The notes below the pieces were generated by a model. That model was given only the letters and a program-made list of their open reading frames with translations, did no database searches and was not told the DNA's origin. Made by a program: the position numbers and the translations under genes. A DNA stretch of 64,000 nucleotides from Candidatus Roseilinea mizusawaensis. Its GTDB lineage: Bacteria; Chloroflexota; Anaerolineae; J036; Brachytrichaceae. Shown here piece by piece: positions 4,096 through 56,937 of the stretch. The stretch covers positions 124,001 through 188,000 of the forward strand of contig JAEANN010000054.1 in NCBI GenBank assembly GCA_016841965.1, written 5' to 3'. How positions within the stretch are numbered: the stretch's first letter is position 1; each line of letters starts with the position of its first letter.

Positions 4096-4531
4096 CTGCA
4101 AAATCCAGCAGTGGCAACACCCGCTTGAACGTGTCGTGCGAGGGCACCCCGTTGGCGCCTCCAGCAGAAATATGCGAAACCAGGCTTTTTTGGCTTTCGC
4201 AAACACTTCGGCTTTTCAGTGAAATGCTCGGTGCCGCAGATGACTGCGCTGAATGCGATAATCAAGACATCGACGAGTTTATGTTAGCGCGTCCGATCAA
4301 CACACGCATCCACCGTTAGGCCATAATGGGTCTATCTCCCATACTGATGCAATCTGTTGACCACGACTGGCAGACCGGGAGATCGCAAGCCCAGAGACCA
4401 CCGCAATTGACACAAGGGCCTTTCGTATTAGAATACGCGCGCACCATGTAAGAGATTCAGTCAAACTATCATCTTCCCCACTGTCACCTTATTGCCCCAC
4501 GTAGAGCGATGAGATCACCCCATGTAGAGCA
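4096..4531. other. Non-coding stretch downstream of larA
   Basis: About 436 bases carry no credible reading frame, RNA gene or strong hairpin. Composition is lower in GC than the flanks. It leads into the LacI pseudogene and looks like eroded or inserted DNA. Confidence 0.5.
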
Positions 4532-4960: not shown

Positions 4961-5160
4961 TGTGGCGATCAGCGTATCGATGCACCTGGTTCGCCGCGCC
5001 TCATCAGGCTACTACCAACGACAAGGAAATGACCATGATCTACCCGTGTGACCTCCCGGCATCACTGCGGCCCTTTCGTGGGAGCGTGGCCCATGCGCCG
5101 CGTCCTCTGATGCATCGGGGAAAGGCCGGCCCGATCTGAACATCTTCAACTCTCAAAAAG

Positions 5161-9165: not shown

Positions 9166-9196
9166 TGATTATCTTCTTCTTTATAGAGGAAAGAGA

Positions 9197-12127
9197 ATGA
9201 AGGTGAAAACACTCACTCATTTCGTTTGTGGCCTCATCGGCGGTTTGTGTGCTGCCGTGTGGTTAGGCGCTCAACCCACGCACGCCGGCACGATCACGGT
9301 GACGCTGGACTTCGATCGCTTCGACGCCGGCGCAACCAGTGATTGCTCGCTGCGCGAGGCAGTTCAAACCGCGAACACGAATGCCCCGTTTGCGGGATGT
9401 CAAGCGCTTGGCTCTTTGGACGATGATGTCATCGTGTTTGACCCTGGTGTGAACACGGTGTTCATCACGCGCACTGTGAGCGGCCCAGATAACGACCACA
9501 ACGAAGACGGCGATCTCGACGTCTTCGTTGGGACGGTGAGCGGCACGCTCACCGTCCAAGGTCCGGTTGACATCGTGGTGCGCGCCCTCTTCGACCGCGC
9601 CTTTGACGTACACGCCGATCCTTCCGGCAGCGGGGCGTTCACCCTGGATCGCGTTCGCGTGTCGGGCGGCGACTTGCGCATTGGCCTCACCACCGACACC
9701 TTCAGCGGCGACCAGGACCAAATTAAGTGCGCGGTCGGGGGCGGCGCGCTGCGCGTCCAGGCGGGGGTGAGCGCGCTGTTGAGCCAGGCGACGCTGCAAG
9801 AGAACGCGGCAGCCTACGCCGGCGGTGGGGTGTGCGTCCGCGAAGGGGGCGCATTAGCCCTCAGCAGGGCGCAGGTGATCTCGAACACGGTTGGGCTGAG
9901 CGGCACAGATCAGGTGGACTGGGTGCTGGGCGGCGGCGGGATATGGAGCAGCGGCCCGCTGACGGTGGTGCAGTCGTTTGTGCTGGGCAACAGCGCAGTG
10001 CTGAGCGGTGGCTACTATGGCCATGCCGGCGGCGGCGGCTTGGGCGTCATCACCGGCTCGCTGGTCATCTCGCAGAGCGAAGTGCGCGCCAACCGGGTGC
10101 AGCAGAACGCACCCGGCGCCGAGGCGCAAGGCGGCGGCATCATGGCGTTGCGGCTCGACAACACGCCGGTTGATGTCCTGATAGACCAAGTGACGGTTGA
10201 GGGCAACATCTCGGAAGGCGGCGTGTCTGCCTATGGCGGCGGCGTGGCGCTGTTGCAGGGCGTGCGCGCTCTCATCACGGGCAGCACGGTGATCTCGGGC
10301 AACGTGCTGAGCGCGACGCAAAATGCCCTGGGGGGTGGCTTGGCCGCAGGGTTGGCGTACTACCCATCCGGCTATCTGCCGCCTGTGGCGACCCTCACCG
10401 GGGGCCACGTATCGCACAATACCGCCACGGCCAGCGCGGCTTCGTCGCCGGGCGTGGTCACCCCCACCGTCTTTGGCGGCGGTGCGTTCTTCGGCCAGGG
10501 CGTGGTCTTCAGCATGACACAGGGGACGCAGGTGCGCGAGAACGCGGCGCGCTACATCGGCTCCCTGAGTGACAACACCAACGGATTTGGCGGCGGGGTG
10601 AGCGCTTTTGCGGTTCCTGCCGGTGCAATTGAGGACGCCGTCGTGGAAGGCAACGCGCTGTTCGGCTTCCGCTTCGGTGGTGGGGCCGGCGTGCATACCG
10701 GCGGCGACGTGTGGGTGCGGCGAACCCAAATCGCGGGGAACAGCGCGGGGTCTTCCTCCGCTTCCTCGGCCGGCACGCTGGGCGGCGGCATGTATGTGAA
10801 CTGGGGCGTGGCGCATGTGGAAGACGCCTGGGTTTACGGAAACGTCATCACCGGAACACAATTTGCCAATGGTGGAGGATTCGGCGTGGATGGCGCGCTC
10901 TACATCACCCACACCCAGGTGAGCACCAACACCGCATTGAACGGTGGTGGATTTGTGGATAACGGCTCTGCTGCTGTGTTTGCGCGCGCCATCACCGTCA
11001 CCGACAATGTCGCCACAGGATCCAGCTATGCCCAGGCCGGAGCGTGGTCCGGGGACGGCACGGTGGTCGTCACGGCCGGCCTGATCGCGGGCAATGTGGT
11101 GAGCGCGCCGAGTGGCGCAGGTGGGGCGCTTATGCGCTACGGCGGGGAGTTCCACGTCTCTCATTCGGTGTTACGCGAGAACCGCGTGGGAGCCGTATGG
11201 TATGCCAACGGCGGCGCGGCGTTGATTGGCAGCAATGCCAAACTGTGGCTCACTGCCACCCAGGTGCTGAGCAACACAGCGTTGGCGACGAGTAACCCGG
11301 CTTACGTGGGGGGGATAAACGTTGATGGTGGCCAAGCATGGCTGCGCGGCGTGGTGATCTCCGGTAATCTGACGATGGGCGACAACGCCAGCGGCGGGGC
11401 CGGACTTGGCGTCGGCAGCTCTGGCGCAGCGGATGCCGAGGGAATCGTCATCCGCGATAACCGCGTGGTAAGCGCGTCCAACCCCAGCGCCGTCGTGGGC
11501 GGAGGCGGTGGAGTGAGCAACGGCGCGGTGGTGCGCCTGCGGCGCGCCTCGGTGATCCACAACCAAGCGGCGTACGGCTCAGGCATCAACACCTACGGCG
11601 CGGCCGAGACGCATCTGCTTAATGCCACGGTGAGCGGCAACGGATATCCCGGAGCAACCGGGCCGCACGGCATTGCGCTAACCGGCACTGCATACTTGAC
11701 CCACACCACCGTGGCCAGCAACACTGGCGCAGGGGTGGGGTTGGCTGGGACGAGCCTCTCTTTACGCGCCGTGGCGCTGGCGCATCACAGCGGCGGCAAC
11801 TGCCTCAATCAAGGCGGCAGCGTGGTCAATAGCGATGCCAGCGTGAGCGATGACGGGAGCTGCAGCGTTTTCTTCGTCGGCAGCGGCGCCCTGAACAACG
11901 CAGCCAACGTGAAGTTGCTGCCGTTGACCTTCCACGCGCCGAGCAGCATGTGGTATCACCCCACAGCGTTGGGCAGCGATCTGCACGATCGGGTGCCGTA
12001 CGCTTTCCTGGCCGGCATTGATCAACTTGGCCAACCGCGGCCCAGCGGCACGCTCCACGCCGACACCGGTGCGTTTGAATTCCAGAACTTGCATCGTGTG
12101 TTTGCACCGATCGTGCGCAAGCCTTGA
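9197..12127 (+). CDS. Secreted right-handed beta-helix protein with CSLREA domain
   Basis: This 976-residue exported protein has a signal peptide (residues 1-30, ending near THAG), a CSLREA motif (C50-A55, near the start of many bacterial extracellular beta-helix proteins) and then about 850 residues of short glycine-rich coils. These contain repeated GGG, VSGN, SNTA and NTALNGGG-type turns, as expected for a parallel beta-helix. The protein ends in HRVFAPIVRKP, resembling the short hydrophobic/basic tails that recur at the ends of exported Chloroflexota proteins and may act in sorting. GAGGAAAGAG precedes ATG. It lies 31 bases after the CBM-array gene and is probably co-transcribed. Possible roles are pectin-like polysaccharide binding or cleavage, or adhesion; no lyase catalytic motif was identified. 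Structure call good, function open. Confidence 0.75.
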   Translation: MKVKTLTHFVCGLIGGLCAAVWLGAQPTHAGTITVTLDFDRFDAGATSDCSLREAVQTANTNAPFAGCQALGSLDDDVIVFDPGVNTVFITRTVSGPDNDHNEDGDLDVFVGTVSGTLTVQGPVDIVVRALFDRAFDVHADPSGSGAFTLDRVRVSGGDLRIGLTTDTFSGDQDQIKCAVGGGALRVQAGVSALLSQATLQENAAAYAGGGVCVREGGALALSRAQVISNTVGLSGTDQVDWVLGGGGIWSSGPLTVVQSFVLGNSAVLSGGYYGHAGGGGLGVITGSLVISQSEVRANRVQQNAPGAEAQGGGIMALRLDNTPVDVLIDQVTVEGNISEGGVSAYGGGVALLQGVRALITGSTVISGNVLSATQNALGGGLAAGLAYYPSGYLPPVATLTGGHVSHNTATASAASSPGVVTPTVFGGGAFFGQGVVFSMTQGTQVRENAARYIGSLSDNTNGFGGGVSAFAVPAGAIEDAVVEGNALFGFRFGGGAGVHTGGDVWVRRTQIAGNSAGSSSASSAGTLGGGMYVNWGVAHVEDAWVYGNVITGTQFANGGGFGVDGALYITHTQVSTNTALNGGGFVDNGSAAVFARAITVTDNVATGSSYAQAGAWSGDGTVVVTAGLIAGNVVSAPSGAGGALMRYGGEFHVSHSVLRENRVGAVWYANGGAALIGSNAKLWLTATQVLSNTALATSNPAYVGGINVDGGQAWLRGVVISGNLTMGDNASGGAGLGVGSSGAADAEGIVIRDNRVVSASNPSAVVGGGGGVSNGAVVRLRRASVIHNQAAYGSGINTYGAAETHLLNATVSGNGYPGATGPHGIALTGTAYLTHTTVASNTGAGVGLAGTSLSLRAVALAHHSGGNCLNQGGSVVNSDASVSDDGSCSVFFVGSGALNNAANVKLLPLTFHAPSSMWYHPTALGSDLHDRVPYAFLAGIDQLGQPRPSGTLHADTGAFEFQNLHRVFAPIVRKP

Positions 12128-12143
12128 ACCAGGATATGCTGAG

Positions 12144-12182
12144 CCGGGCGCAAGCGGGTAGAACGCCCCGCTTGTGCCCCGG
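12144..12182 (+). terminator. Hairpin after the beta-helix gene
   Basis: A stem of about 13 bp with one G-T wobble (GGGCGCAAGCGGG with CCCGCTTGTGCCC) and an 8-base loop starts 17 bases after the stop codon. It has no T-run, so it may be a weak or factor-dependent terminator or a transcript-stabilising structure. Confidence 0.4.
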
Positions 12183-12232
12183 CCTGTGTTGCACGAATGT
12201 TTAGATAAAACAATCTTGAAGGAGAAGTTACC

Positions 12233-14074
12233 GTGAAGACGCGACTGACACGCAGACAAGTGTTGCGCGCCGGGAGCTGGGCCGGCCTGGGACTGTTGGC
12301 AGCCGCCTGCGGCGGCGGGTCGGCTGAGCCGGCGGCGTCCCCAGCCGCCCAGGCCGAGCCCACTCCCACCGAGGCGCTGCCCATGTTGCCCGGAAGCGAG
12401 GTGCGCCCGCAGGCGCCGATTGTGCTTAAGGAGGTTCCCCGCAACCGCACTCTCATTGTCAACTATGGCGGTGCAGGCGGGCAGTTCACCAATCAAGGCG
12501 TGACCAACCCCTGGTCTACGTTGGGCTACAACCACCAAGAGGGCAATGCGCTGCTCTGGGAGCCGCTGTTCTACTACTCGGTGTTCGCCGACAAAGAGAT
12601 CCCCTGGCTGGCGGAACGCGGCGAGTACAACGCCGATTACACCGAACTGACCATCACCATGCGCGCCGGCGCGGAATGGAGCGATGGCGTGCCGGTCACC
12701 TCCGATGACGTCAAGTACACGCTGGACACGCTGGGGCAGAATGACATGCTCAATTACCACGCGCAGGTTGCCGAGGCGGTGAAAGAAGTGCAGGCGCCCG
12801 ATCCGCGCACAGTGGTGATTCGCTTTAACAAGCCCAGCCCACGCTTCAAGTTTGAAATCCTCAGCCTAAAGTTCGACACCGGCATTCCCATCTTGCCCAA
12901 GCACGTGATGGAGCAAATGTATGACGTGACGGCGATGCCGGGAGACGATGACGTGGTGCATAGCGGCATGTTCAACACCGTGCAGACGCCGCAGCAGAAA
13001 GTGTTTGACCTGCGCGAGGACTGGTGGGGCTTTAAGACCGGCTTCCAGCCAAAGCCCGACGTGCAGCGCGTGTTGGTAATCCCGATCAGTGACATGACCT
13101 TAGCCGCTCAGCGAGTGGTGAACAACGACGTGGACGCCACGCTCGACATGCGCGCCTCGTTGATCCGCTCGGTGGTGGAGCAAAACCCCAAGATCATCAC
13201 CCACACCGGTCGCGCTGAGCCGTTCGGCTATGTGGACTGGTGGCCAAACTCGTTGTGGATGAACACACAGCGTGGAGCATACAGCAACCCCGATGTGCGC
13301 TGGGCGCTCAACCTGTCCATTGATCGTGAGACGCTCGACCGCTTCGCGTTCAACGGCGTGAAGACCACCACCATCTTCCCCTTCCCGGAGTACAAGGCGC
13401 TGAAGCCATATCTAGACCGTGTGCGGTCGCGCGGCGAGGCGCTGGGCGTGGGGCGCTTCAGCTTAGAGGAGAGCGCGGCGCGCATGCAGCGCGCCGGCTT
13501 CGCCAAGGACGGCGAGGGCTTTTGGGTCAAGGATGGCCAGCGGGTTAACGCCACCATCCATGGCTTCGAGTCCATTCACGCCGACGTCGCTCCTATTTTG
13601 GTGGAGATGCTGCGTCGGGGAGGCTTCGAGGCTGCGGTGAACTTCGGCACCGACGCTTTCCAGAATATGGTGGACGGTCAACCTGGGCTATATCTCTATG
13701 GCCACGGCGGCAGCCTGGTAGATCCCTATGCCACCCTGGAGCTGTATCACAGCCGCTCCAGCCAGCCCACGCAGAGCGGCGTCGGCGGCAGCAATCGTTT
13801 CTCCCGTTACGCCAACCCAGCGTTCGATCAAGTGGTGGATGCGATGAGCATCACACCGCCGGGTGATCCGCGCCTATTTACGCTGTTTGAACAGGCGATG
13901 GACATCTACTGGGGCGATATGATTGACATCCCGCTCGTCCAATGGCTGCATCGTATTCCCTACAACACCACCTACTGGACCAATTGGCCAACGCAGGAGA
14001 ACCCGTATCTGAACGGCGCGTTCTGGCATTACACCTTCCCCTTGTTGGTCTTGAACCTGAAAGCGGCAGCGTGA
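12233..14074 (+). CDS. Family-5 (peptide/oligosaccharide) ABC solute-binding lipoprotein
   Basis: This extracytoplasmic binding protein of the SBP_bac_5 (DppA/OppA-like) type has 613 residues. The N-terminus combines a twin-arginine-like TRRQVLRAG stretch (R7, R8) with a lipobox LAAAC (C26), followed by a low-complexity Ala/Pro/Thr linker. The mature part has the family hallmark: the FYYSVF-to-WLAERGEYN region and the WSDGVPVTSDDVKYTLDTL segment (about residues 143-165). Start is GTG at 12233, with AAGGAGAA 7 bases before it. No permease or ATPase genes accompany it, which is unusual for this family. It sits among secreted polysaccharide-interaction genes, and some family members bind oligosaccharides such as cello- or xylo-oligomers. 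Substrate unknown. Confidence 0.85.
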   Translation: MKTRLTRRQVLRAGSWAGLGLLAAACGGGSAEPAASPAAQAEPTPTEALPMLPGSEVRPQAPIVLKEVPRNRTLIVNYGGAGGQFTNQGVTNPWSTLGYNHQEGNALLWEPLFYYSVFADKEIPWLAERGEYNADYTELTITMRAGAEWSDGVPVTSDDVKYTLDTLGQNDMLNYHAQVAEAVKEVQAPDPRTVVIRFNKPSPRFKFEILSLKFDTGIPILPKHVMEQMYDVTAMPGDDDVVHSGMFNTVQTPQQKVFDLREDWWGFKTGFQPKPDVQRVLVIPISDMTLAAQRVVNNDVDATLDMRASLIRSVVEQNPKIITHTGRAEPFGYVDWWPNSLWMNTQRGAYSNPDVRWALNLSIDRETLDRFAFNGVKTTTIFPFPEYKALKPYLDRVRSRGEALGVGRFSLEESAARMQRAGFAKDGEGFWVKDGQRVNATIHGFESIHADVAPILVEMLRRGGFEAAVNFGTDAFQNMVDGQPGLYLYGHGGSLVDPYATLELYHSRSSQPTQSGVGGSNRFSRYANPAFDQVVDAMSITPPGDPRLFTLFEQAMDIYWGDMIDIPLVQWLHRIPYNTTYWTNWPTQENPYLNGAFWHYTFPLLVLNLKAAA

Positions 14075-14133
14075 AACCGCGTGAGCGCTTCACCGAGCTG
14101 CAATGCTCCACAGACTGAGCGGCGCGCGATCTG

Positions 14134-14176
14134 AAAAGGGGGAAGGCGCTCTATCAGACGCCTCCCCCTTTTTTTG
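14134..14176 (+). terminator. Rho-independent terminator
   Basis: A GC-rich stem (AAGGGGGAAGGCG pairing with CGCCTCCCCCTT) and a 10-base loop are followed by TTTTTTT. It ends the plus-strand transcript of the solute-binding protein. Confidence 0.85.
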
Positions 14177-14216
14177 CACAGACGTGCCGCCTTGAGAGCC
14201 TACCTGTTGTATGTGA

Positions 14217-15344
14217 TTAGGGCTGCCCGTTGGGGAACAGAGCACGGTGCAGAGGCTCAATCCACTGTTGCTCAGCGCGGTTGTACACGCCAAACCCTTC
14301 GCTGAACTCCCAGTAGGCCCAGGTGATGCCGCGCGATTCGGCGGCGCGCGCGACATAGTCCGTCCATCGCGCGCGATCTTCTAGCTCGGCATACATGCCG
14401 TAGCTGCCGAACTCGCCCATCCAAACGGGCACGTTTTTATCTTTGCTCCAGCGCGCCAGCGCGTTGAAGGCGCGATCAATCGCCAAGCGATCAGATTCTG
14501 TACCAAGCCACCGCGCGCCGATCCATTCTGCGCTGCCGTTGACCCAGTTTGCCCCCTGGTGAGTGAAAGTGTCCGGTTCATAGAAGTGGAAAGTGGCGAT
14601 GAGGTAGGGGTCTTGGGGCACGGCAATGCTGAACAGGCTGGATAGACGCCCCCAATTGGCTCCGGTGAAGATCACGTTGCGCGTGGGATTGGTGCGACGA
14701 ATCACAGTGAGCGTCTCGTTGAACAGTGCTTGCCACACCCGCGAAGTGAGCGCGCCATGAGGCTCGTTGAGCGGCTCGAACAATACTGTGGGAGGCAGGT
14801 CCCGATAGCGCGTGGCAATCTGATCCCATAGCGCCAAGAAGCGCGTCCATTCTGCGTTGGGGTTCTCGAACAGCTCCTCGTAGTGATGCACATTGATCAC
14901 GACGTTGAGGTCGTTGTTGAGCGCTTGTTCAATCACCCAATCAACCCGCTCGAAGAACGTCGGATCAATGGTGAAGGGCTCCTCGCGCAGTGCGTGGGCT
15001 GACCACCGGATGGGCACGCGCACTGTGTGGAAGCCGCCTTCTCGGATGAGGGGGAACATGTATGCATCTAGCCGTAACCCCCATTCTCCTTCGTTGGGGG
15101 CTTCCAGCGCATTGCCCAGGTTCAGGCCTCTGCCCAGGCGCTGCTGCATGGTGAAGGGATCAATGGGCGCGTAGGTGTCGGCCGGCGCAGGCCCCATCTC
15201 AGGCTCACGGGCAATGACAGGAGCAGGGGAGGCCATAGGAGGAAGGGTGGGCGTTGGCGACTGCGGGGCAGCGCAGCTCGTGAGCGCCATCACACTGCCG
15301 GCCCAGAGGAACGCGGCAAGCCGGTACGCTTGTTTGATCTTCAT
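14217..15344 (-). CDS. GH5-family endoglucanase-like lipoprotein
   Basis: This 375-residue glycoside hydrolase family 5 enzyme is predicted to be anchored outside the cell. Its signal peptide ends in LTSC (C24) and a Pro/Ala-rich linker runs to about residue 60. The catalytic (beta/alpha)8 barrel shows LGRGLNLGNALE (start of barrel), VRVPIRW, VINVHHYEE, EPLNEPHG (acid/base E194) and WMGEFGSYG (nucleophile E311). GH5 enzymes cut beta-1,4-glucans, mannans, xyloglucan or related chains by a retaining mechanism. The gene is on the minus strand, converging on the terminator at 14.13-14.18 kb, and stands alone. Together with the CBM-array and beta-helix genes it suggests extracellular plant- or biofilm-polysaccharide attack. 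Family and catalytic residues clear; substrate not. Confidence 0.9.
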   Translation of the reverse strand: MKIKQAYRLAAFLWAGSVMALTSCAAPQSPTPTLPPMASPAPVIAREPEMGPAPADTYAPIDPFTMQQRLGRGLNLGNALEAPNEGEWGLRLDAYMFPLIREGGFHTVRVPIRWSAHALREEPFTIDPTFFERVDWVIEQALNNDLNVVINVHHYEELFENPNAEWTRFLALWDQIATRYRDLPPTVLFEPLNEPHGALTSRVWQALFNETLTVIRRTNPTRNVIFTGANWGRLSSLFSIAVPQDPYLIATFHFYEPDTFTHQGANWVNGSAEWIGARWLGTESDRLAIDRAFNALARWSKDKNVPVWMGEFGSYGMYAELEDRARWTDYVARAAESRGITWAYWEFSEGFGVYNRAEQQWIEPLHRALFPNGQP

Positions 15345-15798
15345 ACCAAAGCCTCGCTTACCTTGGGATAACTTCGTTTAGTGCGCCTATTCTACTATTG
15401 AGACGGTGACGATGAAGCCGGCACGAGGACGCCCCAGGCGCCCATGATGAATGCATCGCTTAGTACTCACAGGGCTTTCGCTTATGTAGGAGTAAAAGCT
15501 CGAATTTGACGCACCGCTGCTCAGTTCAAAATCTTTGACGAGCAGAGGCAGAATGAGCGATGAGCGTTGTAAACGACAGCCTTGAGGCAGCTTTCACGGC
15601 GGATGAGGCGCGCCACTTTCAGATGCCGGCTTTCACACAATTGTTTCGTTTTCCTGGTCTTCGTGGCTTCGCGTTATGCGAGGTTTTCAACTGAGACTGC
15701 GCAAGTAAACAAAGGGCCTTTTTGGCATCTCGAGCGAGGTGAGTCTTGGAGACAGTTTGCCCGCGCCGAGTTGGAGACTTGCCGGGCCTGCGGGGCGG
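15345..15798. other. Intergenic boundary between the GH5 gene and the island
   Basis: No convincing gene is present. The minus strand just upstream of the GH5 start holds a possible -10 (TAGAAT near 15393-15398). Around 15.74-15.79 kb two short imperfect direct repeats of a TTGGAGAC-containing sequence are visible. Composition changes across this stretch from GCCGGC-rich to GCCGGC-poor, marking the left edge of the island. Confidence 0.45.
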
Positions 15799-18099
15799 CT
15801 AAACCCGGTTTAGTTCCAGGCATCCATTTTGCGCGCTCACCTTCCATCTGTGCCCGCCCATCGCTTCCGCCGCGAGCGTTGAGGCGCACGTGAATCCGTT
15901 CAGGGTGAGTTCGGCGGTACATTGGGGCGGGTCGAGGCGCAAAGTCAGCCCTTGCCCGCTTTCCTGAATTTCGACCACTTCCGCCGTCAGATAATGGATG
16001 AGAACGCCAGGGCGCGCCCGCCATTCCAGCGGCAGGATGAGTCCGCGCCGCGCCGGGACCTGAAGCGGGGCGCCGCCAAACAGCCTTTCCCCCGCTAATT
16101 TCAGGGTCGTCTCGATGGGGTCATCCTGATAGTTGTTGACGAACAGAAAACTGCCGTTCTCGCCCTGCGAAAGGCGCACATCCACCCAATCGCTCATCTC
16201 GAAGAGCGGCGGAATGCCCATGCGCTTCGCCATCTGGCGCAGCAGGTCGAGGTCTTCGAGGGTGTTCGCCGCCAGCGCCGCGCCGAAGAGCATGGCTTTG
16301 CCCTTTCCCAGCGTTTTGACGAAACCCGTCACGCCGCCATCGCTGGCGGTGGCGAAGACTTCATCGAATGAACCTTCGTATCGCTCCACAAACGAAGCAG
16401 GGACCTCTTCATAGCCCAGGGCGCGGATGCTTTCCGCCCGAAACGGCTCGCCGCCCGAAATGCGCGTGATGCCGAGCGCGTCGCGGAGCAGCGTGCAGGG
16501 TTGATGTTGAGAATCTTCCAGACACATGCGCCCTGCCAGAATCAACCTGCCGCCCGCGCGGAGGTAATCAATCAGTTTTTGCTGAACGGCAGCCTCGCAC
16601 TGACGTTCCATCATCACCCACAGCGTGGGCGTTTGTGCAGGGTCGAGCGCGGCGCGGGAGAGTTCCAGCGCATCGAAGGGACGCTGCGTGAGCGCCAGCC
16701 CGCGGGCGATGAAGTCGAACAGGATGACCTCGCGCTGGTGGGTGATGATCTTTGTGGCTTCTTCGGTGAAGGAGTTGTTCACCTCGGTCATAAACTGGTC
16801 GAGCAAAAAGCCAATGGTGGTGACGGTTTTGGGGCGGGCGAGGGGCAGGTCGCGGCCATAGGCGGCGAGCGTTTGCGAGAGGCGCGGGTAGCGGGCGTAG
16901 TGTCGGCGCAGCGAGCCATCCTTGCGGACGGGGTGTCCCCAGTCGTGGCGTTTGACGGGGCTGAGAATGGGGTCATTTTCGCCGTCAAAGAACAGGTAGT
17001 GGTTGATGGCGCGCATGCCCACCGAGAGACTCAAACGGGTGTGCAGGTCATAGAACGAGGTCTGCGCGCCGCTGAAATCCTGGTTGCCGCCCGCCTGAAA
17101 CTCAATCGAAAAGAGCGGCTGGGCGGGGTTTTGCAGGGCTTTGGTCATTTCATTGACCAGCAGAAGTTGATGGAAGTTGCCCTCGCCGATGAAGATGGGA
17201 TACACGTCGGTGGCGCTGACCATGCCTTCCAGTTCCATCACCTCCACCAGTTGCGAAAGCCCAATGGGGAAGGTCTTGCCTCCGTTGCCAAAGCCGTGAA
17301 TGTTGACGACGGGGGGCGCCTCCATGCCGTGTTGCTTGGCGGTCTTCCACAGCCAGGTCATGTAGTCGCGCAGGTAGGTTCGGTAGAAGCGGCGGTAGGC
17401 TTCGAGCAGGAAGGCGGCGCGCTCTGCTTGAGGGTGGGAGAGTTCGTTTTGCAGGAATCCAGCCGAAGGTCCAGTGGGGAAGCGGGAGGGGTGAGGTTCC
17501 CTCAGCCAGGCGGCGAAGCGTTCCAGCGTATCGGGATTGAGGTCCACGAGGTTGCGCACCCATTGGAGCATGCCCATTTCGTTGTCGAGTTGGATGAGCA
17601 GGATGTTGCCGCCTCGCGTGCTTTGACGCGGGCTGAGGACGCCAAACACAGCCTGATACCACACCTGGACGTTTTTCAGAAAGTCGGGGTGCAGGTAAGA
17701 GGCAATGTTTTGCATCCTGCCGTCCTGACTGATGAATGCCGCCTGCGGGTTTTGCTCGAACACCCAGGGCGGGATGCCCTCGTTGATGGTCTCCGCCATA
17801 ATGTAGGGACCAGGGCGGGCGATGATGTACAGCCCCATTTGGGCAGCCAGGTCGAGGAAGCCCGCGAGGTTGCGCATGGGATGAGTGCGCCCGTCGAGGT
17901 CGGTGAGAGCGGGCTGGGGCTGATGCCACAGCCAGGGGATGTAGGCGGCGACAGCGTTGAAGCCTGCGTTTTTGAGCAGGTTGAGGCGGTGTTCCCACTG
18001 GTCGGCAGGGGTGCGGAAGTAGTGAAATTCGCCCGCTTGCAGGAGCAGGGGCTGGTCGTCGAGCCAGAATTGATGGTGATGGAAGGTGAAAGTGGGCAT
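15799..18099 (-). CDS. GH35 glycosidase or beta-1,2-glucosyltransferase-type enzyme
   Basis: This 766-residue GH35 protein has no signal peptide and is probably cytoplasmic. It shows AGEFHYFR (about 22-29), AAYIPWLWHQP, IIARPGPYI (92-100), IQLDNEMG with presumed acid/base E174, and SIEFQAGG with presumed nucleophile E333. C-terminal regions look like the beta-rich accessory domains of the family. The catalytic contexts differ from ordinary beta-galactosidases, which usually have ENEYG and EFWxGW. A GH35 member from Ignavibacterium album has been reported to act on beta-1,2-glucosidic linkages. With GH144 and GH94 in the same island, a beta-1,2-glucan role is the preferred reading. AAAGGACTCGC precedes ATG, and a palindromic repeat lies just upstream. 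GH35 itself is certain. Confidence 0.85.
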   Translation of the reverse strand: MPTFTFHHHQFWLDDQPLLLQAGEFHYFRTPADQWEHRLNLLKNAGFNAVAAYIPWLWHQPQPALTDLDGRTHPMRNLAGFLDLAAQMGLYIIARPGPYIMAETINEGIPPWVFEQNPQAAFISQDGRMQNIASYLHPDFLKNVQVWYQAVFGVLSPRQSTRGGNILLIQLDNEMGMLQWVRNLVDLNPDTLERFAAWLREPHPSRFPTGPSAGFLQNELSHPQAERAAFLLEAYRRFYRTYLRDYMTWLWKTAKQHGMEAPPVVNIHGFGNGGKTFPIGLSQLVEVMELEGMVSATDVYPIFIGEGNFHQLLLVNEMTKALQNPAQPLFSIEFQAGGNQDFSGAQTSFYDLHTRLSLSVGMRAINHYLFFDGENDPILSPVKRHDWGHPVRKDGSLRRHYARYPRLSQTLAAYGRDLPLARPKTVTTIGFLLDQFMTEVNNSFTEEATKIITHQREVILFDFIARGLALTQRPFDALELSRAALDPAQTPTLWVMMERQCEAAVQQKLIDYLRAGGRLILAGRMCLEDSQHQPCTLLRDALGITRISGGEPFRAESIRALGYEEVPASFVERYEGSFDEVFATASDGGVTGFVKTLGKGKAMLFGAALAANTLEDLDLLRQMAKRMGIPPLFEMSDWVDVRLSQGENGSFLFVNNYQDDPIETTLKLAGERLFGGAPLQVPARRGLILPLEWRARPGVLIHYLTAEVVEIQESGQGLTLRLDPPQCTAELTLNGFTCASTLAAEAMGGHRWKVSAQNGCLELNRV

Positions 18100-34316: not shown

Positions 34317-36716
34317 TCATTGTGTTTCCTGTTTCGTTCCCAAAACGACATGAACGATGTGTGTTTTGCCATCCTCAAAGACAGGCAGAAGATTGCCTGC
34401 CAGGGGCTGACCATCCACCGTCACGCAACGGACTCCGCCGTTCACATGCTGGGGATTTTCCACGCTGATTTGATAGACCGCATTCCGAAACCGCCGCCTC
34501 ACCTTGAACCCACTCCATGCTGATGGGATGGCGGGTTCCACCAATAAGCCGTTTTCCTGCGGACGGATTCCCAAAATCCAGTGTGTGGCAACGCGGTGCA
34601 GCCATTGCGCCGAGCCGGTGTACCACGTCCAGCCGCCGCGTCCGTAATATTCCGAGAGCGGCCCGTCAATGTTGCCCGGCGTGACGTAAGGCTCCACTTT
34701 GTAAGTCTCGATGTCTGCGCTGCGGTTGGGCGGGCAGATGCGGCGGTACGCCTCATACGCCAGGTCAGGCTGTCCCATCTGCGCGTATGCCCAAACCGAC
34801 CAAGTGGCGGCATGAGTATAGACCCCGCCGTTTTCACGCAAGCCGGGCGCGTAGCGGGTGACGTAGCCAATATCGGGGCGGGGACGGGTGAAAGCGGGGT
34901 AATTGAGAAGTGCGCCGTAGTCCTTGAGCAGGTATTTGGTGACCGAATCCATTGCCTTGCGGGCGCGTTCAGGTCCTGCCGCTCCGCTCATGACCGCCCA
35001 AATATTCGGCATGAGAAAGATTTTGCCCTCCTCGTTCTCCCGCGAACCGAGCGGCAAGCCGTCGTCGGTGGTAGCTTGCAGGTACCACTCGCCGTCCCAG
35101 CCGAAGCGGTTGAACGCCTCTTTGAGGCTGGTGCGCACCTCTTCGCACTTGCGGGCAAAGGTCTCGTCGCCGCGGCGGCGGGCAAGGGGTGCAAAGTTTC
35201 CCAAAATCATGTAGAGAAATTCCGCCACCCAGAAACTCTCGCCTTTCAGGAGCGTCCCCACGGCGCTCAAGCCGTCGTTCCAATCGTGGTCGCCCATCAG
35301 CGGAATGCCGCGCGGCGAAAAGCGCGAGAAGGAGCGCTCGATGGCGCGCTTGCAATGCTGGTAAAGCGGCTCGGCGGGGGCGTTCAGGTAGGCGACAGGT
35401 TCGTCGAGGATGCCGTAGTCGGCGGTTTCCTTCAGGTAGGCGTCGAGAATGAAGGGAAGCCAGAGCAAATCGTCGGAGCAGTTGGTGCGCGGACCGCCGC
35501 CTCGAATGGTGAACCACCAGTGCAGCACGTCGCCTTCGATGAACTGCTGCGAGGCGTGGAGCAAAAGTTGTTTGCGGGCGTACTCCGGTTCGCTGACCAG
35601 GAAAATCTGGCTGTCCTGCAATTGGTCGCGGAAACCGTATCCTGCCGAGACCTGATAGAACGCCGACTTGCCCCACAAGCGGCAGGAGATGGCTTGATAC
35701 TTTGCCCAGAAGTTGGTCATGAAATTCAGCGCTTCATCGGGCGTCTCGACCTGTTCCGTATCGAGGAAGCGCGCCCAGAATTCATGCACCGCCTGAAGCG
35801 CCCGACGGCTTTTCTCCGGCGAGGTGAACCGTTCGATGAGTTCATGCGCGTCTTCGCGTCCGTCCTCTGCCGCGCCGAGGGTGAAAACAATCGTTTTCGA
35901 TTCGCCCGGCGCCAGCGTCACGGCGACCTGAAGGGCGGCGATGGCGTCCGTAAAGCGGCCCAGGCGTCCCGTCAGGTGTGAAGCGATCATCGCTTGAGGG
36001 CGGTCATCGTTGTTGTACAAACCGAGGAAGGATTCCTTGTCGCAGTCGAAGGATTTGAGCGCTTCGCTGACCGCCATGAAGGCGGTGTAGGGCCAGTCCA
36101 CGTTGTTGTGACGTCCCTTTTCGTCCGGGAATCCCCACAGGCATTTGCGGGCGAAGACGGCGCGCCGCTCGACATCGGCGGAGGTTTCGATGAATAGTTT
36201 GTGAAACTCGCGGTGTTCATCAGGCGCAAAGCCCAGCAGCCACTCGGCGTAGGAGGTCACATCCAATTCGCGGGTTTCGCCGCTCAGGTTGGCGAGCGTC
36301 AACTGAAAGATTTCCACCGGCGCATCTGCCGCCACGAAAACCGTCAGCGCGCTTTCGATGTCCTCCACCCGCTGCAGGAAGCGGGAATACCCCGCCCCGT
36401 GCGTGACTTCATAGCGCTGATAGGGGCGCATGACCGGCTTATACGCTGCCGACCAGTACGTTTGACGTTTCAAATCGCGGATGTAGAAATACTTGCCCCA
36501 GTTATCCCGGATGAGGTCCTGAAAGGAACGCGTAATGCGGTTCTGCCCGGCATTTCCCCGCCAACTGTAGCCGGAACCCGTTTGCGAAATCAGCATGCCA
36601 TAATCGCCGTTGCTGATGACGTTGCCCCAGGGGCGCGGGGTGAAGGGCGTCGTAATCACATATTCCCTGCCATCTTCGGAAAAGTAGCCAAAGGGGCTTT
36701 CGAATTTTTTCCGCAT
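34317..36716 (-). CDS. GH94 glycoside phosphorylase (beta-1,2-glucooligosaccharide candidate)
   Basis: This cytoplasmic inverting phosphorylase of 799 residues, a typical GH94 length, would release a sugar 1-phosphate from a beta-linked oligosaccharide using phosphate. Visible in order are the N-terminal beta-sandwich (FGYFSEDGREYVI to YAEWLLGFAPDE), a linker, and an (alpha/alpha)6 barrel with the family motif DWNDG (from residue 478, containing the general acid). The GGWTWYTGSAQWLHR segment near residue 720 is part of the phosphate-binding region. The last segment resembles GH94 domains that handle beta-1,2-glucans more than cellobiose phosphorylases, but that is judgement by eye. It is the first gene behind a strong promoter with a LacI-type operator. 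GH94 is certain; the linkage is inferred from two GH144 neighbours. Confidence 0.88.
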   Translation of the reverse strand: MRKKFESPFGYFSEDGREYVITTPFTPRPWGNVISNGDYGMLISQTGSGYSWRGNAGQNRITRSFQDLIRDNWGKYFYIRDLKRQTYWSAAYKPVMRPYQRYEVTHGAGYSRFLQRVEDIESALTVFVAADAPVEIFQLTLANLSGETRELDVTSYAEWLLGFAPDEHREFHKLFIETSADVERRAVFARKCLWGFPDEKGRHNNVDWPYTAFMAVSEALKSFDCDKESFLGLYNNDDRPQAMIASHLTGRLGRFTDAIAALQVAVTLAPGESKTIVFTLGAAEDGREDAHELIERFTSPEKSRRALQAVHEFWARFLDTEQVETPDEALNFMTNFWAKYQAISCRLWGKSAFYQVSAGYGFRDQLQDSQIFLVSEPEYARKQLLLHASQQFIEGDVLHWWFTIRGGGPRTNCSDDLLWLPFILDAYLKETADYGILDEPVAYLNAPAEPLYQHCKRAIERSFSRFSPRGIPLMGDHDWNDGLSAVGTLLKGESFWVAEFLYMILGNFAPLARRRGDETFARKCEEVRTSLKEAFNRFGWDGEWYLQATTDDGLPLGSRENEEGKIFLMPNIWAVMSGAAGPERARKAMDSVTKYLLKDYGALLNYPAFTRPRPDIGYVTRYAPGLRENGGVYTHAATWSVWAYAQMGQPDLAYEAYRRICPPNRSADIETYKVEPYVTPGNIDGPLSEYYGRGGWTWYTGSAQWLHRVATHWILGIRPQENGLLVEPAIPSAWSGFKVRRRFRNAVYQISVENPQHVNGGVRCVTVDGQPLAGNLLPVFEDGKTHIVHVVLGTKQETQ

Positions 36717-36775
36717 GGGGGCCTCGGGGTTCCAGACCTTTCTCTTCTCGGTTTTTGGTCAAGCTATCGCCCGTC

Positions 36776-36793
36776 AGATGAAACGTTTCATCT
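36776..36793. promoter_or_regulatory. LacI-family operator
   Basis: AGATGAAACGTTTCATCT is a perfect 18-bp palindrome with the central CG typical of LacI/GalR operators. It begins immediately downstream of the -10 element and lies 60-77 bases before the GH94 start, so a bound repressor would block initiation. Confidence 0.85.
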
Positions 36794-36801
36794 AACATCA
36801 A

Positions 36802-36830
36802 AAACTATCATACCTGCCTTGTTTTGTCAA
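36802..36830 (-). promoter_or_regulatory. Sigma-70-type promoter of the GH94 gene
   Basis: On the minus strand TTGACA (36825-36830) is followed by a 17-base spacer and TAGTTT (36802-36807). The -35 is a perfect match and the -10 is a fair one. The predicted start of transcription falls at the edge of the LacI operator. Confidence 0.75.
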
Positions 36831-36839
36831 GCAAATTGG

Positions 36840-37105
36840 TTAGGTTAGGTTAGGCGGGTTAGCGGATAGCAGATACGCTTCAAGATTTTGCGCTGCAAGT
36901 GGCTCTGGCAAAAATGACGTTGTGGTTACACCCGGAGGCGGGCGATTGAAGGTTGAATCCGGGCAGCAATAGAGACTTCGGCGCCGTTGGGTTCGGCTGA
37001 GCGGGTACCCGGCGATTCTCACTACCTTTCAGGCGGGACTGGATGATAATCTTGTGGCAGGTCTCGCCAGCCCGCTGTCGATGGGATATCCAGCGTGTTT
37101 GAACT
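36840..37105. other. Non-coding right boundary of the island
   Basis: No credible gene. A short GGTTA-type microrepeat occupies about 36838-36860. Composition shifts back toward the GCCGGC-rich style of the flanking genome. The stretch runs into the larA relic. Confidence 0.45.
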
Positions 37106-37240
37106 CAGCCCTTGCCTGCAGGCAACTCCACTTTCCTCCTTTACCTTTACCTTGTTTCTTTCAGACTTCCAGACGATGACTGGCTGGACGATCTGGTTGT
37201 CCGGCACACGCTGTTGACGCTGGCGCGATCGGCCACATAA
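37106..37240 (+). pseudogene. Decayed 3' relic of a second larA homologue
   Basis: The stretch from about 37107 to 37135 aligns at the DNA level with larA positions 3992-4020. After an inserted T-rich stretch of about 30 bases, 37166-37240 reads LPDDDWLDDLVVRHTLLTL then ARSAT and stop. The intact larA ends LSDDDWLDYLIVPHALLTL then PRLAAQ and stop. Upstream similarity fades out. It is too short and interrupted to be expressed. It lies 27 bases before the DegT start, i.e. directly outside the right edge of the island. Confidence 0.8.
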
Positions 37241-37267
37241 TGGGCATAAATCTCAGGGAGGTTGTTC

Positions 37268-38542
37268 ATGTCGATGTCCACGGCAAAACTCGCGATCGAA
37301 GGCGGCCAGCCCGCCGTGCGTTCTCCCCTTCCCCCCATGTATCCTGGCGGCCTGCGCATCGGCCAGGAGGAGGAAGAGGCCGTGTTGGAAGTCATTCGCT
37401 CCAAACGGCTGTTTCGCTACTACGGCCCGACCCCCGGCCCCTCGAAGGTGGCCCAGCTAGAGCAGGAATTCGCCGCGTGCATGGGCGCGCCTTACAGTGT
37501 GGCGGTCACATCCGGCAGCGCGTCATTGATCTGCGCGCTGGTTGGGCTGGGCATCGGCCCCGGCGATGAAGTGATCGTGCCGGCTTATACCTGGATCGCC
37601 TCGGCCTCGGCGGTGCTGGCTGCCGGCGGTGCGCCTATCCTGGCCGAGTGCGACGAATCGCTGACCATCGATCCATCGGACATCGAGCGCCGCATCACCC
37701 CGCGCACCAAAGCCGTCATCCCGGTGCACATGCGCGGCGCCCCGTGTGACATGGATGGCGTGATGGCTGTCGCCCGCAAGCATGGCCTGAAGGTGTTGGA
37801 GGACACAGCCCAAGCCGACGGGGCCAGCTATCGTGGCAGGCGTTTGGGCAGCATTGGCGATGCCGGCGCGTTCAGCTTCCAGTTCAACAAGATCATCACC
37901 TGCGGCGAAGGCGGCATGGTCATCACCGGCGACCGTGAGGTATGGAAACGGGTTGTGATGTATCACGATGTGATCGGCGGGGCGCGCAACGGCATTCCCG
38001 AAGGAGAGATTTTGCCGGGCGTCAATTTCCGCATGACGGAGTTGCAGGGCGCGGTGATGCTGGCTCAATTGCGCAAGCTGGACACGTTGCTGGCGGACAT
38101 GCGTCGCAACAAGGCCTTACTCAAAGCCACCCTCGAAGACGTGGCAGCGCGCAAGGGCATTGCTTTCCGAAGGCAGAACGACCCTGCCGGCGACGCAGCC
38201 ATCTGCCTGATCTTCTATTTGCCCGAAGCAGCGCGCGCCAATGCGGTGGCCGAGGCGTTGCAAGCCGAAGGCGTGCCCGCAGAGGTCATGCACCGGCCGG
38301 GTCAGTCGGACTATCATATCTACCCGTACTGGACGCCCATCATGCAGCAGCGCACCTGGCATCCCAACGGTGGGCCGTGGCGCTGGCATCAGGGCGAGGT
38401 GCGCTACACGCCGGATATGTGCCCGCGCACCCTTGATTTGCTGAGTCGGGCGATTCACATCGACATCAGCCCCGACCTGAGCAACGAGAATATCGAGGAA
38501 CTGGCGGAAGGGTTGAATAAAGTGATGAGTGCGGAGTGGTGA
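37268..38542 (+). CDS. DegT/DnrJ/EryC1/StrS-family PLP aminotransferase
   Basis: This 424-residue PLP-dependent enzyme belongs to the sugar aminotransferase/dehydratase family. Hallmarks are VAVTSGSASLICALVGLGIGPGDEV (about 77-101), IPVHMRGAPCDM, VLEDTAQADGASYRGRRLGSIGDAGAFSFQFNK with the Schiff-base lysine K208, and NFRMTELQGAVMLAQL. GGGAGG lies 7 bases before ATG 37268; a TTG two codons earlier is less likely. The last 80 residues (HRPGQSDYHIYPYW, GGPWRWHQGEVRYTPDMC) suggest a member acting on a small-molecule or nucleotide-sugar ketone. No nucleotide-sugar genes are adjacent, so the substrate is unclear. A 2Fe-2S ferredoxin follows. Confidence 0.88.
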   Translation: MSMSTAKLAIEGGQPAVRSPLPPMYPGGLRIGQEEEEAVLEVIRSKRLFRYYGPTPGPSKVAQLEQEFAACMGAPYSVAVTSGSASLICALVGLGIGPGDEVIVPAYTWIASASAVLAAGGAPILAECDESLTIDPSDIERRITPRTKAVIPVHMRGAPCDMDGVMAVARKHGLKVLEDTAQADGASYRGRRLGSIGDAGAFSFQFNKIITCGEGGMVITGDREVWKRVVMYHDVIGGARNGIPEGEILPGVNFRMTELQGAVMLAQLRKLDTLLADMRRNKALLKATLEDVAARKGIAFRRQNDPAGDAAICLIFYLPEAARANAVAEALQAEGVPAEVMHRPGQSDYHIYPYWTPIMQQRTWHPNGGPWRWHQGEVRYTPDMCPRTLDLLSRAIHIDISPDLSNENIEELAEGLNKVMSAEW

Positions 38543-38604
38543 GTGGTGAATGACACAATCGGGTATGCTTGGGTGACAAATCTCGATCGGTTTGGAGGTC
38601 AAGT

Positions 38605-38994
38605 ATGCCGAAATTGAGTGTGTTGGATAAGACAATCGACGTGCCGGCCGGCCGGCGTCTGGTGCTGGCGATCGAAGATGCCGGCGTGCGCATCGGCCAC
38701 CGCTGTGGCGGCAACGCCCGCTGCACCACCTGCCGCGTGCAGTTTACCAGCGGCGAGCCAGATACGATGACCGAAGCAGAGTACCGGCTGTTGAACGAGC
38801 GCGGCCTGTTCGGCCAGTACCGGCTGTCGTGCCAGATCGTGTGCGACCATGACATGAGTGTAACGCCTGTCATGACTGCCGACAATCAGCCGCAGTGGAA
38901 CGGCGACACCGGCCCCGCGCCAGACCCGGCAGTGAAGCCCGATGCTGTCTGGCAGCCGATTGAGGCGCTACGGGGAGCATCGCCTTCGGCGTAG
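38605..38994 (+). CDS. 2Fe-2S ferredoxin
   Basis: This small soluble electron carrier of 129 residues has cluster cysteines in CGGNARCTTC (C-x5-C-x2-C) with a fourth in RLSCQ, the adrenodoxin-like spacing. GGAGG stands before ATG 38605; a longer frame to 38569 has no ribosome-binding site. The C-terminal 35 residues are Pro/Ala-rich and beyond the fold. Possible redox partners in the window include the Rieske oxygenase at 44.2-45.1 kb. It is followed by an intrinsic terminator. Confidence 0.88.
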   Translation: MPKLSVLDKTIDVPAGRRLVLAIEDAGVRIGHRCGGNARCTTCRVQFTSGEPDTMTEAEYRLLNERGLFGQYRLSCQIVCDHDMSVTPVMTADNQPQWNGDTGPAPDPAVKPDAVWQPIEALRGASPSA

Positions 38995-39023
38995 CTCGGC
39001 CCGTGCAACATGGCGCCAAGACA

Positions 39024-39060
39024 CAGAGCGCAGACGGCTTGTCTGCGCTCTGTTCATTTT
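39024..39060 (+). terminator. Intrinsic terminator after the ferredoxin gene
   Basis: A perfect 12-bp stem (CAGAGCGCAGAC with GTCTGCGCTCTG) and a 5-base loop are followed by TTCATTTT. Confidence 0.8.
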
Positions 39061-39194
39061 GGCTCATGCTTGTTGGCCCATGCTTGGCTCATGCTGCCCC
39101 TTCCCACTTGCGCATGTTCGCAGCCATGCCGGTGCAGCACGATGATCGCCACAGACTAACCAGAACGGAACCGGCCGGCTACACTTGATCTCCA

Positions 39195-41672
39195 ATGGAA
39201 TTCGGCAACCTGTTTCGCTTGTCTTATTGGCTCGACCCCACCGTGTTGGAGCGCCCGGCCGGCCCATTCATGTGGCTGCTGGTTGCCGTCGGCGCGCTGT
39301 GGGGGCTGGGGGCGATTGTGCTGTGGCGCGCGCGCCCCCCATTGCGCGCTGTGGCGCTGGCTCAGGCGATTGCCGCTGCGCTGTTTGCCGCTGTGGCAAT
39401 TGGCCGGCTGTACAGCATCCCCCTCCTCGGCCTGCGCGCCGGCTGGTTGGTGGCCGGGTTGATTGGCAGTGCGCCCGTCGCCACACGCATTGCGGCGCAA
39501 GCCCGGCGCGATGGCGTGTTCGAGGCATGTCTGCGTGCGATGACTTTCATGACAGACATGACACAGTCGCGCGACAGTCAATCGACATGGCATCGCGCAA
39601 CGATGCTGGCATGGGCCGGCCTGCACCTCTTTGGCCTGACAACGGTGTGCGCTGTCGCGCGACTGCCGCTGGCGCTGGGGCCGGCGCTGTGTGTTGCGCT
39701 ATTGGCGCCGGCCATCATCGCGCTCGCGCGATCAGCCCTGCGTCGCCTGCAAGGCAATGGCGCGCCCATGCCGGCCGGCCAGATCATCACGCACGGCCTC
39801 GCCGCGCTTACGCCCCTGCTGCTGATCTACGGCGTTTTGGCGCTGCGCCTGTTGATTGCATTTGTCGCGCGCGTCGCCACCGGCGCGTTCGCTGTTGTCG
39901 AACCCTTCGGCGCGCTGCTCAACCTGCCTCTGACATTGATCGTGATGTCGGCCTATGCGCTGCTCGCTGCGATCTATGGCGCGCTGCAGCATATTAATCT
40001 GCGATGCCCCGACACGCAGTGTGCAACACGCAATGCCCAATTCGTCAGGTGGGGTGCGCTGGCGCTGATGGCCGGCGCGATGGCATGGGCCGGCTGGACT
40101 GCGCTCACGCTGCGCACACATGGCGTCAGCGGCAGCGACCCCTACGCCTACGCGCAGATGGGCGTCGATCTGGCCGAGCGGGGCACGGTGTTTCATCATT
40201 TTCCGCTGGCGCGCCTGACCTACGCGCTCGACATCCCCACCGAGCCGATCGTGCACGTGGGCTACAAACTGCCCCAGGATGTGTCGCGCATGGCCACGAC
40301 GGTCTGGCCGCCCGGCTACGCCATGTTCACCGGCGCGGCGTACAAGATCGCCGGCGAACAAGGGTTGTATCTCATCACGCCGCTGCTGTCGCTGATCTCG
40401 CTGTGTGCGATTGCCTGGATGGCCGGGACATTCACGCGCAGCCCCGGCCCGCTGCGCGGTCGGGGCAGCCGGCTGGCTGTTGCCGCGCTGGCCGTCTTTT
40501 TGAGCGCCACCTCGTACCAGCAGGTCGAGTGGCAAATGATCCCCATGGCCGATGTGGCTGCTCAGTTGTTCTCTGTGCTGGCGCTGGCGCTGGCGTTTGT
40601 GGATTGGCGGGCGCCGGGAGCGTGGGGACGCGCCGCCCTCAGCGGCGTGTGCCTGGGGATCGCCTTCGACATCCGCTACACGCAAGTGTTGATTGCGCCG
40701 GCCCTTGCGCTGGCGCTGCTGACGCCTATCCCTGCCGGCCAGCCTCCGCTGCGCGCCATTGCGACGCGCCTGCCCTATGTCGCGCTGTGCGCGGCGTTTG
40801 CGCTGCTTGCGGCAGCGCCAGTGCTGATCTATCACACGCTGGCCTTCGGCAGTCCGTTTCATACCGGCTCTGAGGAGTGGGCCAACTTTTCCGTGACGCG
40901 CCTGCCCGAAACAGCCTGGCGCACTATCAATGAATTGCTGGCCTACCGCGAATTCGGGTTGCTGGCGCCGGTTATCATCATCGGCGCATGGGCGCTGTGG
41001 CACGCATCGCGGCGAGGGGCGGTGACACTGCTGGCATATTTCGCCCCGCTCTTCATCTTTCACGTGGCGTACTGGCCGTTGCGCCTGCGCGACATCCTCT
41101 CGCTGTTTCCCGTGCTCAGCATTTTGGCCGCAATCGGGGTCGTGTGGGTGGTTCAGCGCATGATCGAGGCCAATCACGATAAGCCGGCGCGTTGGAAGAG
41201 GGCCGGGCTGGCCGGCCTGCTGGTGTGCCTCTCATTTGCTTTCGTGTTGCGCGCGATGGACACGTTGGCCTTGCCAATCACGCGCGGCTTCGGCGCGTTC
41301 GGCTATCTGGTGCGCGAGCAGCGCGCGTCTTTCACAGAGATCGGCCGGCTGACGCCGCCAAACGCCGTGATCGGCTGCTCGCTCAACAGTGGGCCGGTCG
41401 ATCTGTATGCCGGTCGGTTAGCCTTTCGCCCCGCCAACTGGACGCCCGATCAACTGATTGCATTTGTGCGCGCGCTGCACCGCGAAGGCAGGCCGGTGTA
41501 CCTTCTCGATGATGGCATTGAAATGACCGGGATGATCGAGACAGTGCGCGCGCAACTCACCTTGCGCGCAGTGGCGCGGCTGGATGTGCCATACTACTTT
41601 GCCGGCAGCGGCTCCGAAAATCGCCAGGCCGCGCTGTATGCCGTAGAGGAGCGCAGCAGCGCCGGAAATTAA
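39195..41672 (+). CDS. GT-C-type membrane glycosyltransferase (PMT/ArnT-like)
   Basis: This 825-residue polytopic protein has about a dozen or more hydrophobic segments. The extracytoplasmic loop after a transmembrane segment near residue 290 holds SGSDPYAYAQMG (about 315-326), the acidic DP-type motif where GT-C enzymes place their catalytic aspartate. Later come WPPGYAMFTGAAYKIAG, the DIRYTQ segment and YWPLRLRDILSLFPVLSILAA, as in dolichyl/undecaprenyl-phosphate-sugar-dependent enzymes. It likely transfers a sugar from a lipid carrier to a lipid, protein or cell-wall acceptor. The N-terminal 280 residues of extra helices are unusual. No strong ribosome-binding site is seen. Donor and acceptor unknown. 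Confidence 0.7.
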   Translation: MEFGNLFRLSYWLDPTVLERPAGPFMWLLVAVGALWGLGAIVLWRARPPLRAVALAQAIAAALFAAVAIGRLYSIPLLGLRAGWLVAGLIGSAPVATRIAAQARRDGVFEACLRAMTFMTDMTQSRDSQSTWHRATMLAWAGLHLFGLTTVCAVARLPLALGPALCVALLAPAIIALARSALRRLQGNGAPMPAGQIITHGLAALTPLLLIYGVLALRLLIAFVARVATGAFAVVEPFGALLNLPLTLIVMSAYALLAAIYGALQHINLRCPDTQCATRNAQFVRWGALALMAGAMAWAGWTALTLRTHGVSGSDPYAYAQMGVDLAERGTVFHHFPLARLTYALDIPTEPIVHVGYKLPQDVSRMATTVWPPGYAMFTGAAYKIAGEQGLYLITPLLSLISLCAIAWMAGTFTRSPGPLRGRGSRLAVAALAVFLSATSYQQVEWQMIPMADVAAQLFSVLALALAFVDWRAPGAWGRAALSGVCLGIAFDIRYTQVLIAPALALALLTPIPAGQPPLRAIATRLPYVALCAAFALLAAAPVLIYHTLAFGSPFHTGSEEWANFSVTRLPETAWRTINELLAYREFGLLAPVIIIGAWALWHASRRGAVTLLAYFAPLFIFHVAYWPLRLRDILSLFPVLSILAAIGVVWVVQRMIEANHDKPARWKRAGLAGLLVCLSFAFVLRAMDTLALPITRGFGAFGYLVREQRASFTEIGRLTPPNAVIGCSLNSGPVDLYAGRLAFRPANWTPDQLIAFVRALHREGRPVYLLDDGIEMTGMIETVRAQLTLRAVARLDVPYYFAGSGSENRQAALYAVEERSSAGN

Positions 41673-56082: not shown

Positions 56083-56937
56083 ATGACAGACACCAACACC
56101 CTGGTTTCTATAGCCGCCAAACAAACAGGCAGTGACCATAAACAATCTGCCGGCCCCAACACCCTGACGGCCAAGATGCGGGTGGACAATCTGTCTGTGT
56201 TCTACGGCAGTTTCCGCGCGGTTGCAGATGTCACCTTACCCATCTATGACCGGCGCATCACAGCCATCATCGGCCCCTCTGGCTGTGGCAAAAGCACGCT
56301 GTTGCGCTCGCTGAATCGCATGAATGAGCTGGTGCCATCCGCGCGCGTCGAGGGACACATCGCGCTCGATGGCGACGACATCTATGCCTCCACCGTCGAT
56401 CCGGTGCTGGTGCGCCGGCGGGTAGGCATGGTCTTCCAAAAACCCAACCCTTTCCCCAAGAGCATTCACGAAAACATCGCCTACGGGATCAGGCTCTACA
56501 ACCCGCGCATGCCACGCTCTGAGCTGGACGACCGGGTAGTGCACAGTCTGAAGCGCGCTGCGCTTTGGGACGAAGTGAAGGACAAACTGAAGCAGTCTGC
56601 CTATGCGCTATCTGGCGGCCAACAGCAACGCTTGTGCATCGCGCGCACCATCGCCGTCGAGCCTGAGGTGGTGCTGATGGACGAGCCTTGCTCGGCCCTC
56701 GACCCGCTCGCTACGCTGAAGATCGAAGAGTTGATGCAGGAGCTTAAGCAAGACTACACCATCGTCATCGTCACACACAACATGCAGCAGGCAGCGCGCG
56801 TGAGCGACCATACCGCCATGATGATGATGCGGCCCGACCGCGCCGGCGAAATGATCGAATTCGACGACACCCAGGTCATCTTCACCAAACCCAAGGACAA
56901 GCGCACCGAAGACTATGTGAGCGGACGGTTCGGCTAG
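56083..56937 (+). CDS. pstB: Phosphate ABC transporter ATPase PstB (copy 1)
   Basis: This ATPase of the high-affinity phosphate importer has 284 residues from ATG 56083, preceded by GAGGGATCA. Walker A is GPSGCGKST (64-72), the signature is [15 protein letters not shown], Walker B is [13 protein letters not shown], and the C-terminus [19 protein letters not shown] is the PstB-specific ending. It lies alone with phoU and a response regulator, without pstSCA. A second pstB is in a pst operon at 62.9-63.8 kb. The two proteins are close but not identical. It is likely induced by phosphate limitation through the upstream repeats. Confidence 0.94.

Follow-up and report, generated by a model that had tools for sequence, protein, structure and literature searches.

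Within the analysed window, a 64,000-nucleotide stretch of the Candidatus Roseilinea mizusawaensis genome, an intact larA gene (2785-4095, forward strand) and a degT aminotransferase gene (37262-38542, forward strand) lie on either side of a block of roughly 33 kb, and directly upstream of degT the 3' end of larA recurs in decayed form. The source genome is a draft assembly (59 contigs, 3.86 Mb), and the junctions described here are those of the assembled contig. The product of larA carries the Pfam domains Lar_N and LarA_C above cut-off (152.8 bits for Lar_N, with a cut-off of 23.3), as do members of the LarA superfamily, which PMC7583248 describes as nickel-pincer racemases and epimerases. 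Unlike the lactate and malate racemases of that superfamily, the protein falls far under the NCBIfam cut-offs for both functions: lactate racemase proper was rejected (225 bits vs. an equivalog cut-off of 460), and the best NCBIfam match, the malate racemase LarAH5, reached 254 bits vs. a cut-off of 462. Homologs of the cofactor-synthesis proteins are encoded elsewhere in the genome (LarC family PF01969, 437.8 bits; LarE family TIGR00268, 332.7 bits). The larA gene is 86% identical to that of the closest relative in the comparison (G001), with 255 codons unchanged, 119 synonymous and 59 non-synonymous differences.

The sequence from 37107 to 37256 corresponds to the final ~100 bp of larA and the 13 bp that follow its stop codon, on the same strand as larA. 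A local alignment of larA (2785-4200) with 36701-37300 scored 87, while the highest of 300 Markov shuffles scored 37, and a self-BLAST of the window paired 37166-37241 with 4018-4093 (82% identity, E 9e-14). A search of all 3.86 Mb of the genome matched the tail to itself and to larA and to nothing else. The relic consists of a first part (37107-37131, forward strand, 22 of 25 positions identical to larA), a pyrimidine-rich 34-bp insert that breaks the reading frame in the alignment (37132-37165), and a second part (37166-37256, forward strand) that aligns without gaps to both the left copy and G001 and continues into the degT spacer. The right copy stays collinear with G001 onward through the spacer, the ribosome-binding stretch and degT, whereas the match of the left copy to the G001 spacer ends about 13 bp beyond the larA stop. 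Because the right copy runs into degT as it does in G001, it occupies the ancestral place rather than being a second larA gene. The decayed larA tail in front of degT proposed by the initial annotation was therefore recovered, although it extends about 15 bp further into the spacer than the end at 37240 given there, and its description as the relic of a second larA holds for a copy of the tail but not for a whole second gene, since what can be seen is only part of the gene, at the ancestral position.

The ancestral arrangement of this locus is preserved in related genomes. In both of the other genomes of the genus that were available for comparison (G001 and G002; the two are 93% and 87% complete), larA is followed directly by degT, with about 25 bp between the two genes in G001. 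The same adjacency occurs in three of the four genomes of the sister genus with a larA ortholog (G014, G018 and G024). Among 59 other genomes, a close larA ortholog (at least 64% identity) was detected in six, and degT adjoins it in five of these. A second, named collection contained 26 larA loci, five of which had the orthologous degT directly downstream; as these are the same five genomes, this count adds names and not independent cases. The one exception belongs to the sister genus (G009), where larA (L069, on G009:C565) and degT (L070, on G009:C460) are located on separate contigs among other neighbours. No larA tail was found in front of degT in that genome, and the broken junction could be the result of an insertion or a rearrangement.

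Alignment to a single contig of G001 defines the limits of the event. Window positions 1-4108 correspond to 5279-9337 of that contig and positions 37166-39062 to 9247-11143; the two flanks are thus collinear and overlap by 91 bp in G001 (BLAST). Together with the adjacency of larA and degT in relatives, this indicates that 4109-37106 is an insertion accompanied by a target duplication of ~116 bp, the latter comprising the 91-bp overlap plus the 25 bp on the far side of the 34-bp insert. The left copy of the duplicated segment (3993-4108, forward strand) consists of the larA 3' end and 13 bp, and the two copies correspond over these 116 bp, the last of the 13 post-stop bases aligning loosely. 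The inserted island is 32,998 bp long, is missing from the larA-degT junction of G001 and G002, and has a foreign tetranucleotide composition. Overall, we consider it highly probable that a 33.0-kb foreign block was inserted between larA and degT with duplication of a ~116-bp target at the larA 3' end. The empty site and the exact ends of the island allow its gene content and its gain to be read without guesswork. A seven-base motif, ATCCAGC, was spotted by eye near both junctions (~4103 and ~37088) and is too short to be given weight. Comparison of the island ends for terminal inverted repeats gave no inverted match (score 17), and no tRNA genes were detected in the 64-kb window (ARAGORN).

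The island comprises two carbohydrate-use modules. Module A (5161-15344) encodes two large proteins, one of them with a CIA30 domain, an SBP_bac_5 protein and a GH5 protein, and extends to 4559-15344 when a decayed lacI-type regulator gene at its left end is included (4559-5021, forward strand; a tblastx match to an intact LacI at the same position in G013 and G004, with a weak Pfam LacI match at E 0.009). All four genes are collinear with a locus in G013 (G013:C6) and all except GH5 with one in G004 (G004:C33), both genomes being of the same family. The large CIA30-domain gene (5161-9165) contains strong internal repeats, with up to 88% identity over 225 bp. Module B (15799-36716, reverse strand) encodes a GH35, two glycoamylase-type proteins, a LacI regulator, ABC permeases, a DUF5696 protein, a Yip1 protein, two SBPs and a GH94. 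It has homologous loci in other families of the class (G046:C39 and G055:C570), with which it is largely collinear at 43-86% identity; some module B genes are absent from the stretches retrieved from these two genomes, part of this absence reflecting where the stretches end. Between the GH94 gene and the relic lies a perfect palindrome, TGAAACGTTTCA (36773-36796), the sole one in the window at up to one mismatch, which we take to resemble a LacI-type operator.

Queries with individual island proteins agree with the absence of the block from the closest relatives. Neither G001 nor G002 had a match to the CIA30 protein. The DUF5696 protein was matched in seven of the 59 other genomes, G001 and G002 not being among them, and the GH94 protein was unmatched in G002, its homolog in G001 reaching just 41%. 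The island is also compositionally foreign: the tetranucleotide distance to the host was 0.23-0.25 for module A (5-kb windows) and 0.29-0.35 for module B, and at most 0.175 for 15 host windows, which were themselves part of the host reference and are favoured by that bias. The two modules are of different origin, and the island is therefore composite. A larA tail between the modules, as would be expected from two successive insertions, was not found in 15345-15800 or 14075-14216 with a full-length larA profile. A plasmid origin of module B was also considered and set aside as uninformative, the GH94 relatives found on plasmids all having less than 60% identity (168 of 168 records).

The relative age of the duplication can be judged from the sites at which the copies and their relatives differ. 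The phylogenetic signal for the copies consists of eight informative sites; in six of these the left and right copies group together against G001 and G002, in two the right copy groups with G001, and in none does the left copy group with G001. The derived sites common to both copies point to a duplication within this lineage, which most likely postdates the split from G001 on the sequence comparison. The identity between the left and right copies (85 of 104 compared columns) is not above that between the left copy and G001 (also 85 of 104), so the duplication is not recent. Ten private changes were counted in the right copy vs. two in the left (binomial p about 0.02, a value also obtained for the split of informative sites). 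Codon differences from G001 were 12 synonymous and four non-synonymous in the left copy, vs. six and 13 in the right copy (Fisher p 0.018). By these patterns the left copy, which completes larA, is under constraint, and the right copy is decaying and is predicted to be no longer coding. The dead tail, set against the constrained one, forms a dated scar of a large insertion for which neither an integrase nor a transposase was detected.

The initial annotation had read the layout as the product of recombination or integration through larA, in which case relatives without the island would be expected to carry a larA-degT junction and the tail to be closest to the larA of its own lineage. The junction is present in five of the six genomes with an ortholog, and the tail is nearest to the larA of the window (85 of 104) and then to that of G001 (81 of 104), not to an unrelated larA lineage; the reading is thus supported by both the empty site and the affinity of the tail. 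In the sequence of events that we propose, a foreign block carrying the two carbohydrate-use modules would have entered at the larA 3' end, in front of degT, and the last codons of larA together with the first bases of the spacer would have been duplicated (~116 bp). The left copy would have kept larA whole and presumably functional, and the right copy would have stayed before degT, lost its coding role and decayed. This layout suggests why the insertion was tolerated, with larA whole and the sequence upstream of degT kept.

The machinery of integration we infer indirectly. We tentatively favour, at somewhat under an even chance, recombination through the larA tail, either in one crossover with a circular molecule that carried a 3' piece of larA or by homology-facilitated illegitimate recombination; the larA tail can serve as the homologous anchor for one-sided recombination of the latter kind. 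Such a mechanism has been proposed for the serial displacement of the 3' regions of type VI secretion system (T6SS) effector genes in Vibrio cholerae and of Rhs loci, according to PMC5361080 and PMC3240628. These systems resemble the present locus in that foreign DNA arrives at a gene 3' end and the old 3' part is pushed downstream with no integrase; they differ in that the displaced tail here duplicates the gene's own end and is dead, instead of stemming from another cassette, and in that the inserted DNA amounts to 33 kb of genes for catabolism. Repair of a staggered break, or another route, seems unlikely as the machinery, slightly more so than the integrase element considered below. Transposon insertion was rejected, there being no transposase among the 17 island ORFs and no terminal inverted repeats and the duplication measuring 116 bp; the usual target duplication of a transposon is far shorter than this.

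Integrase elements that insert at gene 3' ends classically leave the gene intact on one side and its displaced 3' tail on the opposite side. It is therefore conceivable, though on balance unlikely, that the larA 3' end served as the attachment site of a site-specific integrase element, which supplied a replacement for that end and whose integrase was subsequently lost; as in integrase islands and ICEs at gene 3' ends, the intact gene, the displaced tail at the opposite end and the empty site in relatives would all be accounted for. Against this, no integrase, transposase, relaxase, excisionase or phage gene was recognized among the 17 island ORFs (Pfam) or 10 gap ORFs (Pfam and PHROGs; small ORFs were covered partly), and both copies resemble the larA of one lineage. 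The repeats of an integrase island share an identical att core, unlike the 82% identity seen here, although age could have eroded a former core (85 of 104 columns remain identical). That larA was duplicated in tandem, with the island arriving later between the copies and the second larA being eroded to its 3' end, appears quite improbable. The derived sites common to both copies do mean that a within-lineage duplication is real, and a tandem pair would be in line with the possible additional tail at 37011-37055; however, none of the relatives searched has two adjacent larA genes (one close ortholog per genome), 36717-37106 contains no secure larA sequence (a full-length larA profile found nothing), and more steps are needed. 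An assembly artefact in which two genomes were joined at a common larA end would be in keeping with a draft genome of 59 contigs and with the differing composition of the island, but is very improbable: a k-mer join would need copies more alike than the 82% identity seen here, decay of the right copy took place in situ, and both flanks match the same G001 contig. The event itself is of an already known kind, of which this locus is a clean and well-preserved example.

The region between the palindrome and the relic contains a possible second and older larA tail (37011-37055, forward strand), where the larA tail is matched again, less strongly and not securely. A second larA in front of the relic, whether full or half eroded, was rejected, as alignments of 36717-37105 were at shuffle level and the profile found nothing; the sole exception, a match to the G001 larA with a score of 30 vs. 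a maximum of 28 in 30 shuffles, is the one that became the possible older tail. One of 1500 shuffles and not a single one of 635 control windows attained its maximum pairwise score; with lenient maximum scoring, however, 83 of the 635 did so. Of the profile searches, one gave E 0.15 and another reported no match. These scores give a hint of an older tail, which, if real, would mean repeated duplication at the larA tail site. One improbable extension is that large, integrase-less catabolic islands land repeatedly at the larA 3' end, with tails piling up before degT and the displaced tail acting as the degT promoter. If so, each arrival would duplicate the larA tail and push the old one downstream (37011-37055 being the older and 37107-37256 the younger), the broken larA-degT junction in G009 would record a further arrival at this site, and a TTGACG-16-CATAAT sequence in the displaced tail would drive degT.

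This promoter-like sequence lies inside the relic, upstream of degT (37214-37241, forward strand), and is a match by consensus only, with one found vs. a shuffle mean of 0.3; its second hexamer ends 26 bp short of the degT ATG. The ATG at 37268 is the likelier start of degT over the TTG at 37262. The product of degT matches Pfam DegT_DnrJ_EryC1 and is 93% identical to the G001 protein, and the two genes differ by 95 synonymous and 29 non-synonymous codons, so degT is still constrained though it is now cut off from larA, its ancestral neighbour. Downstream of degT, 39195-41672 encodes an 825-aa protein that is conserved in G001 and has no Pfam or NCBIfam match. Additionally, two ABC-transporter ATPase genes further along the window (56257-56933 and 62921-63597) form an inverted pair with 74% identity over 682 bp, and the ~6 kb between them encodes SBF- and ArsP-type permeases.
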